Position numbers and translations under genes: made by a program. 42,921 bases of DNA from Pseudomonadota bacterium (GTDB taxonomy: Bacteria; Pseudomonadota; Gammaproteobacteria; Burkholderiales; Burkholderiaceae_C): assembly GCA_031119395.1 (NCBI GenBank), contig JAVHYA010000042.1, positions 2,209 through 45,129 of the forward strand, read 5' to 3'. Below, one piece after another: positions 9,373-42,557 of the stretch. The notes below the pieces were generated by a model. That model was not told where the DNA came from and did no database searches. It saw only the letters and a list, made by a program, of their open reading frames with translations. Numbering within the stretch: position 1 is the first letter of the stretch; each line of letters opens with the position of its first letter.

Positions 9373-9435
9373 TGCTATTGATTTGATAGCTGCTCGCGCC
9401 CGTCCGGCGGGCGCTGCGGCCTCATTTTGTTCAAG
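9373..9435 (+). repeat. Two-stem intergenic palindromic repeat, copy 1
   Basis: Copy of a dispersed element made of an AT-rich palindrome, GCTAT-N7-ATAGC at 9374-9390, followed by a GC stem, GCGCCCG at 9396-9402 paired with CGGGCGC at 9408-9414, and then a GCGGCCTCATTTTGTTC tail. The tail could let the GC stem act as a terminator for the CopD-like gene. The same architecture recurs at 22890-22950, 26400-26455 and 30041-30100. From memory this class of repeat is common in Comamonadaceae genomes. Confidence 0.72.
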
Positions 9436-22867: not shown

Positions 22868-22889
22868 CGCCGGGCCTCGAGGCGTTTCG

Positions 22890-22950
22890 GGTCGAAACAG
22901 CCCGCAACGCCCGCCAGTCGGGCGCGGGTCGCTCCTGATTTCATAGCAAC
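22890..22950 (-). repeat. Two-stem palindromic repeat, copy 2
   Basis: Read on the minus strand, this begins TTGCTATGAAATCAGGAGC (22949-22931), followed by the stem CGCCCG (22924-22919) paired with CGGGCG (22913-22908) and a TGCGG tail. This is the same order and spacing as the copies at 9373 and 30041. The AT-rich core is partly degenerate. It fills part of the 222-base gap between the holin-like gene and the acidic protein gene. Confidence 0.62.
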
Positions 22951-25124: not shown

Positions 25125-27125
25125 TCAGGCCGCCGCCTGCGCCCGCCGCTCGGCCAGCGCCACGTACCAGTCGAGGCTGCCGGGGTTGGCCATCGCCTCG
25201 CGGTTCACCACGCGCTCGATGGGCTGGCCCAGGAGCAGCTTCTTGATCGGGAGTTCCTGCTTCTTGCCGGACAGGGTGCGCGGGATCTCGGCGACCTGGA
25301 AGATGTCGTCGGGCAGGAAGCGCGGCGACAGCGCGGTGCGGATGGCGTCGTTGAGCTTCCTGCGCATGGCGTCGTCGAGCGCGACGCCGGGGCGCAGCAC
25401 GACGAACAGCGGCATGTAGCTCTCGCGCCCGAGGTACTCGAGGTCGACCACCATCGAGTCCATGACCTCGGGCAGCGCCTCGACGGCGTTGTAGATCTCG
25501 CTGGTGCCCATGCGCAGGCCCTGGCGGTTGATGGTCGCGTCGCTGCGGCCGTAGATGACGCAGCCGCCGTCCTCGCCGATCCTGATCCAGTCGCCGTGCC
25601 GCCAGACACCGGGGTAGGTGTCGAAGTAGCTCGACAGGTAGCGTGCGTTGCCGGGGTCGTTCCAGAAGTACAGGGGCATCGAGGGAATGGGCCGGCTGCA
25701 CACCAGCTCGCCCACTTCACCGATCACGGGCCGGCCCTGCTCGTTCCAGGCCTCGACGCTGGCGCCCAGCTGGCGGCACTGCATCTGGCCGGGCACTTCG
25801 GGCAGTTCTCGGTTGCCGCCGACGAAGGCGCCGCAGAAGTCGGTCCCTCCCGAGATATTGCACCACCAGGGGTCGGGCGAGCCGGCGGCCTTGAGCTGCG
25901 CCGTGCCCCAACGCTGCACGTCCTCCGCCAACGGCGAGCCCGTGCTGCCCAGCGCCCGCACGCGCGACAGGTCGCCGCAGTCGCTGGCCACGACGCCCGC
26001 CTTCATGCAGTTGGTGAAGTAGGCCGCGCCGGCGCCGAAGAAGGTGACCTTGTGGCGCGCGACGAAGCGCCACAGCACGGTCCAGTCGGGCTTGTCCTTG
26101 CTGCCGCCGGGGTGGCCGTCGTAGATGCAGATGGTGGCGCCGAAGGCCAGGCCCGAGAGCTGCGAGTTCCACATCACCCAGCCGGTGGAGCTGAACCAGT
26201 GGTAGCGCTCGCCGCGGTTGTTCTCGCCGTAGCTCGCGCCCACGTCGTTGTGCAGGCCGCAGGCGTACATGTTGATGATGATCCCGCCCTGGCCGTGCAC
26301 GATGGGCTTGGGCAGGCCGGTGGTGCCGCTGGAGTACACGACCCAGATCGGGTGGTCGAAGGGCAGCCACTCGGGCTCGAAGGCCGCCACTTGCGCATCG
26401 TTTCGAGCTGCAGCGCCCGTCCAGTCTGCGTCATGCGCTATGGATTTCGTAGCGTAGGAGCTCTTCACCAGCAGAAGCTTCTGCACCGAGGGCAGCGCCT
26501 CGCGCAGCTCCTGCACGATGGCGCTGCGGTCCACCGGCTTGCCGCCGTAGTGCACGCCGTCGGCCGCGATGAGCACCTTGGGCTCGATCTGCTTGAAGCG
26601 ATCGGCCACCGCGGCGGTGCCCATGTCGGGCGCGCACACGCTCCACACGGCGCCGATGCTGGAGCAGGCGAGGAAGGCGACCATGGTCTCGGGCACGTTG
26701 GGCAGGTAGGCCGCGACGCGGTCGCCGCGCTGCACGCCGAGCGACCGGAGCGTGAGCGCGACCGAGGCGACCTGGCGCCTCAGCTCGGGCCACGACATCT
26801 CGCGCACCTCGCCCAGCTCGTTGTCGCTCACGATGGCCGGGCAGCCGGCGGCGTGCGCGGCGTCGGCATGGCGCAGCACCTCGCGTGCGTAGTTGACCTG
26901 CGCGCCGGGGAACCACACGGCGCCCGGCATGCGGTCCTCGGCCAGCACGGCCGTGTGCGGCGTGGGCGAGTGCATGCCGCTGTAGTCCCAGATGCTCTGC
27001 CAGAACGCGTTCAGGTCGGTGACCGACCACTGCCAGAGGTCGGCGTACGCATCGAAGGCGAGGCCGCGGGTCTCGCGCAGCCAGTTCTGGTAGAGGCGGA
27101 TCTGGGGGATGTTGGGTGCAGTCAT
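25125..27125 (-). CDS. Acetoacetyl-CoA synthetase (acetoacetate-CoA ligase)
   Basis: ANL-superfamily ligase of 666 residues, the usual length for acetoacetate-CoA ligases, which activate acetoacetate with ATP for ketone-body or polyhydroxybutyrate metabolism. The ACAS N-terminal block (LWQWSVTDLNAFWQSIWDYS) comes first, then the P-loop YSSGTTGLPKP from Y264, YHWFSSTGWVMWN, and the C-terminal GRSDATINRQGLRMGTSEIY and SGKKQELPIKK, which carries the catalytic lysine. The ATG at 27125 is chosen by family start. Residues about 224-242, just before the P-loop, are encoded by a copy of an intergenic palindromic repeat that keeps the frame open. Confidence 0.88.
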   Translation of the reverse strand: MTAPNIPQIRLYQNWLRETRGLAFDAYADLWQWSVTDLNAFWQSIWDYSGMHSPTPHTAVLAEDRMPGAVWFPGAQVNYAREVLRHADAAHAAGCPAIVSDNELGEVREMSWPELRRQVASVALTLRSLGVQRGDRVAAYLPNVPETMVAFLACSSIGAVWSVCAPDMGTAAVADRFKQIEPKVLIAADGVHYGGKPVDRSAIVQELREALPSVQKLLLVKSSYATKSIAHDADWTGAAARNDAQVAAFEPEWLPFDHPIWVVYSSGTTGLPKPIVHGQGGIIINMYACGLHNDVGASYGENNRGERYHWFSSTGWVMWNSQLSGLAFGATICIYDGHPGGSKDKPDWTVLWRFVARHKVTFFGAGAAYFTNCMKAGVVASDCGDLSRVRALGSTGSPLAEDVQRWGTAQLKAAGSPDPWWCNISGGTDFCGAFVGGNRELPEVPGQMQCRQLGASVEAWNEQGRPVIGEVGELVCSRPIPSMPLYFWNDPGNARYLSSYFDTYPGVWRHGDWIRIGEDGGCVIYGRSDATINRQGLRMGTSEIYNAVEALPEVMDSMVVDLEYLGRESYMPLFVVLRPGVALDDAMRRKLNDAIRTALSPRFLPDDIFQVAEIPRTLSGKKQELPIKKLLLGQPIERVVNREAMANPGSLDWYVALAERRAQAAA
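26400..26455 (-). repeat. Two-stem palindromic repeat, copy 3, inside a coding sequence
   Basis: On the plus strand, GCAGCGCCCG (26410-26419) is followed by exactly 17 bases and GCTAT (26437-26441), then a TAGC at 26450-26453. The reverse complement of copy 1 shows the same GCAGCGCCCG, 17 bases, GCTAT and a closing TAGC. The second half of the GC stem has decayed. It lies in frame within the acetoacetyl-CoA synthetase gene and is translated on the minus strand. Confidence 0.65.
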
Positions 27126-30040: not shown

Positions 30041-30100
30041 CTATCGATTTGATAGCTGGTTGCGCCCGCCGCTCGAGCGCGATGGCCTTGTTTTCTTCAA
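30041..30100 (+). repeat. Two-stem palindromic repeat, copy 4 (between boxB and boxA)
   Basis: CTATC-gattt-GATAG at 30041-30055 is followed by GCGC at 30062-30065 and 30077-30080, then GATGGCCTTGTTTTCTTCAAG, closely matching the tail of copy 1 (GCGGCCTCATTTTGTTCAAG). It occupies most of the 81-base gap between the boxB stop and the boxA start, so it lies inside the box transcript and may fold as an intercistronic stem-loop affecting message decay. Confidence 0.75.
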
Positions 30101-42494: not shown

Positions 42495-42557
42495 CCCCTC
42501 GAAAACGGAAAGTGCAATCGGCCTGCAGCGCCCACCCCACGGGCGTTGCGGCCGAAT

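Follow-up and report, generated by a model that had tools for sequence, protein, structure and literature searches.

The acetoacetyl-CoA synthetase gene (aacS) in the 42,921-nucleotide stretch of bacterial DNA analysed here (the window) includes, read in frame as part of the coding sequence, a genuine member of a high-copy, REP-like family of palindromic repeats found in Comamonadaceae. The copy belongs to a family dispersed through the genome, its site and reading frame in aacS are common to many genera, it is close to neutral in length, and it carries anomalous codons that are conserved among relatives. On balance, we consider it probable that an old REP-like family is kept as DNA genome-wide and that it replaces protein loops, or is tolerated in them, by way of its one always-open reading frame. 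Repeats of this kind take the place of native enzyme loops in Comamonadaceae with little change in length or none, at sites common to several genera, and are apparently held there as DNA. They offer a case, open to test, in which protein sequence and codon usage would be dictated by a non-coding repeat, and for which a natural comparison is available between repeat-rich and repeat-poor species within one genus.

The repeat family

Read in the direction of the gene, the repeat unit runs from GCTAT-N7-ATAGC through a short variable part to a GC-rich second stem ending at GCGCT and then a T-rich tail, and its hairpin arms are visible in an alignment of 48 genomic copies. The exact core, GCAGCGCCCG-N17-GCTAT, is matched 159 times in the window's 5.1 Mb genome, and a reversed control gave no match; among the matches listed (at least about 100) the gap is 17 bases at every place, although gaps of 10-25 were permitted. 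The earlier note had reported GCAGCGCCCG, a 17-base gap, GCTAT and a closing TAGC inside aacS, and this arrangement was borne out, the aacS copy being one of the 159 genomic cores. RNA pairing was considered as the feature that is kept and was set aside, since by eye several copies retain ATAGC despite an altered left arm.

A pattern for the first part of the repeat gave 258 matches in the window's genome and a maximum of 305, in a relative. Of 149 genomes, 27, among them that of the window, had five or more matches, and 8 of the 14 other genomes carrying the window's genus code had 0-3. The reversed control of this pattern gave at most 2 matches in any of the 149 genomes, and counts of 1 stand at the control level (15 genomes had 1 or 2 control matches). 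Within the window alone, a looser core with 3 mismatches was not commoner than in shuffled sequence (18 matches against a shuffle mean of 13), so that only exact or profile matches are informative. The copies found in the window are collected in Table 1; the intergenic copy has orthologous counterparts in three relatives (G009, G012 and G013) and is eroded in its left half in a fourth (G007). Rfam returned no match at gathering score across the whole window, and literature searches, short strings of the repeat sequence included, gave no recognisable description of this repeat in a literature whose subscription papers were mostly beyond reach.

Table 1. Features of the window, with positions counted from its first base.
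Feature	Position	Strand	Basis or remark
Intergenic repeat copy	9373..9434	-	58.0 bits, profile of 48 genomic copies
Further degenerate repeat copy	22886..22949	+	30.7 bits, profile of 48 copies
aacS, acetoacetyl-CoA synthetase, 666 aa	25125..27125	-	ORF, Pfam, PDB sequence and fold matches
Repeat-derived coding segment, residues 225-243 (ATKSIAHDADWTGAAARND)	26397..26453	-	Profile match, codon test
GCAGCGCCCG block of in-gene copy	26410..26419	+	Sequence, core pattern
17-base gap of in-gene copy	26420..26436	+	
Hairpin part GCTAT-N7-GTAGC of in-gene copy	26437..26453	+	Sequence; GCTAT 26437-26441, (G)TAGC 26449-26453
Further repeat copy, partial in profile match	30041..30080	-	25.6 bits
Possible partial repeat copy, GC-rich stem part only	42510..42547	+	18.8 bits; weak

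The spread of the family may be due to a Y1-type transposase encoded by a neighbouring gene. At three loci (L221, L222 and L223), in three species of the window's genus, a repeat copy adjoins the 3' end of such a gene, and a copy was found near a Y1 gene in five of six repeat-rich genomes inspected, one of them about 620 bases off, with the sixth giving only 8 bits. These adjacent copies fit a REP-like family, although they do not prove its mobility. Y1-type transposase genes occur in 107 of the 149 genomes, with or without repeats, and the presence of the gene was rejected as the sole explanation of repeat abundance. One genome (G029) has 20 matches to the Y1 transposase family, several of them equal-scoring; most relatives have one.

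The copy inside aacS and its codons

The aacS protein has the Pfam domains AMP-binding, ACAS_N and AMP-binding_C, its best PDB sequence match is 4wd1 (E 3.4e-187), which is also its best fold match, and the nearest named records are titled Xenophilus and are 97% identical. The earlier note had placed the segment just before the P-loop at residues 224-242; the position holds, with YSSGTTG starting at residue 264, and the numbering is shifted by one (Table 1). The gene lies on the minus strand and the element's own orientation is plus. The profile of 48 copies matches positions 26403-26454 with 36.4 bits (E 2e-9 for the whole of the sequence searched). In the AlphaFold model (mean pLDDT 85, with 92-96 over residues 221-250) the segment is predicted to form a loop plus a short helix at residues 235-240; the earlier note had anticipated a surface loop.

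Sites in homologous genes were scored against a profile constructed from the window's genome together with six others, and were called repeat-like at 7 bits or more on the gene's strand. By this measure 27 of the 120 parsed close aacS loci (26 distinct, identical loci such as L077 and L186 being counted twice) are repeat-like at the same site and strand, in many Comamonadaceae. When each of these genes was back-translated synonymously with its own codon use, none of 300 versions reached the real score, in all 27 loci, and the proposal that this part of the protein is repeat-derived and read in frame is supported.

The codons themselves are out of keeping with their surroundings. The window's aacS has a GC3 of 0.97 outside the segment but 0.54 within it, and in the 27 repeat-like genes isoleucine is encoded by ATA in 26 of 35 segment codons against 25 of 707 elsewhere. 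Among 54 aacS genes from a single clade, very rare codons stand at codon 229 in 31 genes and at codon 241 in 27 (the next column has 6); ATA accounts for 28 of the 54 at codon 229 and CGA for 23 at codon 241. No other column of the 658 has very rare codons in at least half of the genes, and these two both lie inside the segment. AT-ending codons as a class also peak outside it, the highest column being codon 86 (CAT in 42 of 54). A 20-base motif around codon 241 was found in aacS only, in 2 of the 149 genomes; exchange between copies would therefore be insufficient on its own to keep that part of the element.

Proposed maintenance, erosion and possible renewal

We propose that repeat DNA replaced most of a variable loop-helix of aacS long ago, its net length altering little if at all, and that this replacement probably predates the separation of the genera with repeat-like aacS. 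The loop would tolerate the Ala-rich peptide produced by the frame of the element that is open in every copy examined. A genome-wide process, for which exchange between copies or selection via a repeat-binding factor are candidates, would hold the DNA of the element near its consensus in genes and intergenically alike, and where this process fails, in-gene copies would drift to ordinary GC-rich codons. Both the upkeep process and a single old replacement, rather than many, are what we infer from the pattern of retention and loss. More tentatively, an upkeep process blind to coding may rewrite the loops repeatedly, in a fixed frame and with little change in length, and so hold very rare codons in place in several genera, with joint decay of coding and intergenic copies if it is lost.

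Repeat content and the state of the aacS copy go together. The aacS site scores at least 4 in 15 of 18 genomes with five or more repeats and in 1 of 29 others (Fisher 2e-8, a value that ignores kinship). The sample is the 47 genomes with a parsed aacS, and the cut-offs were chosen afterwards, with G013 passing at 4.5. The exceptions are G009, G007 and G077, which bear repeats and score low, and G049, which departs in the opposite way; G014, a near twin of G009, is left out of the count. On the tree, which leaves out L166-L174 (L174 being without a parsed aacS motif), there are only 6 independent pairs, of which about 4.4 agree and none disagree, too few for significance. Joint loss is seen in G007, which has 21 repeats against 169-305 in five others of its group, its nearest relatives. 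Erosion, complete or partial, has affected all six of its orthologous copies examined (those in aacS, ThiL, biotin carboxylase, Nnr and a GlcE-like protein, and one intergenic); part of the element survives in the GlcE-like copy and in the intergenic one.

Another account would treat the segment as a fossil only, left by one ancient insertion or replacement that was inherited vertically and has decayed neutrally, the DNA not being maintained. Such a history would suit the site and frame that several genera have in common, and the segment has diverged among G012, G013, G009 and G007 at roughly the rate of their fourfold sites, as in an unconstrained stretch. Furthermore, two repeat-rich genomes of the genus, G009 and G013, have eroded aacS copies, an observation that counts against maintenance, which does not predict such erosion. 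Decay alone, however, sits poorly with the retention of ATA and CGA in about half of the 54 diverged, high-GC3 genes, and with erosion accompanying low repeat content, and we regard the fossil account as unlikely.

The segment of G000 raises a different possibility, namely that the partly similar loop of the window's lineage was recently converted to near-consensus repeat by exchange with a genomic copy. Between G000 and its nearest relative, G013, 21 of 72 segment bases differ, against 4.4% in the rest of aacS, an excess over the fourfold rate with P 1.5e-4 (uncorrected for the 21 pairs tested). Of 421 codons compared, 14 are private to G000; A or T is the last base of all seven that lie in the loop, and G or C that of all seven outside it. 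The private base changes of G000 raise the summed repeat score (P about 0.001), and those of the other four genomes do not. The aacS copy of G000 thus looks partly renewed, to judge from these substitutions. Yet only five private base changes qualify, three towards the repeat and two away from it; retention in G000 with parallel loss in the others could give the same picture, and a donor copy was not identified. Recent overwriting is accordingly, in our estimation, rather improbable.

Probable replacement of a loop rather than insertion

If the repeat had entered aacS as a simple in-frame insertion of about 19 residues, in the style of the Rickettsia palindromic elements, the loop should be longer where the repeat is present. 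We measured the loop between the conserved LPSV and FDHP motifs, leaving aside L191 and L192, which lack the LPSV anchor, and L196-L198, which lack the motif. It has 41 residues in the window's protein and likewise in all 14 loci from the genus of the window, eight of them from genomes with 0-3 repeats. The prediction of the earlier note that an insertion of about 19 residues would be restricted to repeat-bearing genomes thus fails: within the genus the loop has 41 residues with or without repeats. Across the close homologues 84 of 120 parsed loci have a loop of 41 residues and the others 39-52; divided by repeat-likeness, the 27 repeat-like loops have 41 residues in 17 cases and 44-49 in 10, and the other 93 have 41 in 67 cases and 39-52 in 26. 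Deeper homologues (24 parsed; among the outgroups L164 and L166 have their anchor placed more upstream) have 39-53 residues, and the solved structure 4wd1 has 36, counted on a sequence alignment. The loop aromatic W235 aligns, by eye, with an aromatic in outgroups without the repeat. Since the loop lengths are alike, W235 is aligned and the model gives a loop with a short helix, we take the segment to stand in the place of a native element; because W235 aligns with the aromatic of repeat-free homologues, part of the segment may itself be native.

The family also enters other genes. Eight of 89 genomic copies, these being the places listed for the strict core pattern rather than a random sample, lie within other long open frames of coding base composition. 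The likeness to Rickettsia palindromic elements drawn in the earlier note is therefore apt: inspection of 89 copies showed at least eight further genes to carry the repeat in an open frame. Six of the eight are read in the aacS frame and two in the matching frame of the opposite strand. The frame used in aacS is open in every one of the 89; for the remaining frames the numbers of open copies are 0, 11, 66, 82 and 82. The open-frame scan depends on GC-rich flanks and may overlook genes; L008 and L129, flagged by it, were left out as unidentifiable proteins. Pfam supports the identification of the copy-bearing proteins as ThiL (thiamine-monophosphate kinase), Nnr (NAD(P)H-hydrate repair enzyme), a biotin carboxylase chain, a penicillin-binding protein, an endonuclease-family protein and CobS. 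Two further proteins, neither of which had a Pfam match, we take to be GlcE-like and DUF58-like; the GlcE-like protein has homologues in 20 of 20 genomes.

Lengths in these proteins speak for insertion, as do the presence of the repeat in frame in several genes and the 10 longer repeat-like aacS loops. The ThiL copy recurs in other genera (lengths parsed outside L336, L343 and L351): the measured stretch has 48 residues in six genera, two of whose genomes carry only 3 and 6 repeats, 52 in two other genera and 61 in one. Five genus-code species with 0-3 repeats have 43-46 there, three genomes of the same family have 40, and nine genomes of other families, all free of the repeat, have 40-41, so that the net gain over these outgroup families is about 7-8. 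The GlcE-like protein of the window's group (L327 being unparsed) has gained about 9-13 residues relative to outgroup families, its stretch having 38 residues against 33-37 in three other genera, and Nnr has gained 5-8 relative to genus-code species with few or no repeats. The repeat-coded stretch, however, is about 20 residues, larger than any of these gains, and the change in ThiL, the GlcE-like protein and Nnr is therefore mostly replacement as well. Among four other genera without a visible repeat, the Nnr loop is just 1-3 residues shorter in three and 9 shorter in the fourth, and the biotin carboxylase linker differs in length by 1-4 within the genus. For aacS the loop lengths rule a simple insertion out, and as a general account it is very improbable.

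That coding constraints alone produced the resemblance is, judging from the sequence comparisons, scarcely credible: the peptide is similar to the ordinary Ala-rich loop sequence of homologues, but the synonymous-codon test contradicts such an origin in 27 of 27 loci and the matches lie at the same aacS site in many genera. The rule offered in the earlier note, that residues of similar length in homologues lacking the repeat would make the resemblance a coincidence, does not hold here, the DNA match being common to many genera and carried by synonymous codons.

Comparison with known systems

Repeat elements read in frame are familiar mainly from Rickettsia and are regarded there as insertions. 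DNA uptake sequences are motifs kept genome-wide, in and between genes, with preferred reading frames, and are much shorter; by analogy, the present repeat may resemble them in its genome-wide upkeep and preferred frame. Like the Rickettsia elements, the present repeat is palindromic and present in many copies (159 exact cores, with hairpin arms in 48 aligned copies), and it lies in frame within several unrelated genes of one genome (8 of 89 copies, besides aacS), the compatible frame being a further likeness (compare PMC3733652). The present family differs in belonging to Comamonadaceae, in measuring about 45-60 bp, in leaving aacS without net lengthening in the genus (41 against 41 residues) and in a gene site common to several genera; ThiL, Nnr and the GlcE-like protein show partial gains only, in contrast to lengthening by the full element.

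REPs of the GTAG/CGTC type are described in PMC3733652 as high-copy palindromes, some lying wholly inside ORFs, with a transposase gene beside REP copies; the same paper reports that in two Xanthomonas species REPs sit at nearly one and the same place in recB. Whereas the GTAG/CGTC unit has 20-40 bp, the consensus of the present repeat is longer and shows, by eye, no fixed GTAG/CGTC end tag. Five Comamonadaceae genus names sought in the main text of PMC3733652 are absent from it, and the section of it consulted makes no mention of the length neutrality seen here in aacS. BRE, which according to PMC3110155 has full-length copies of 75-91 bp and at most 29 copies per genome in Bordetella, also has copies in Comamonadaceae, some entirely inside coding sequences; compared by description only, it shares with the present repeat this family and the in-gene copies.

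A second repeat family and other insertions in aacS

A second repeat family, recognised by the motif GCGCCCCCTCGGGGGGCAGCGA, has made true in-frame additions to aacS in two genomes. The aacS of G013 (L104) carries a 28-residue addition with the GCGCCCCCTCGGGGGGCAGCGA motif at about residue 505, and that of G008 (L185) has the exact motif in a 108-base extra stretch at about residue 413. Many Comamonadaceae aacS proteins have insertions of about 5-46 residues relative to the window's protein, at about residues 414-418 and 491-505; these are rich in G, S, P and R, and some resemble translated repeats. In the biotin carboxylase gene of G003 and G004, the GCGCCCCCTCGGGGGGCAGCGA motif lies just past the start of the protein match (residue 73-74), which suggests another in-gene or gene-edge copy of the second repeat.
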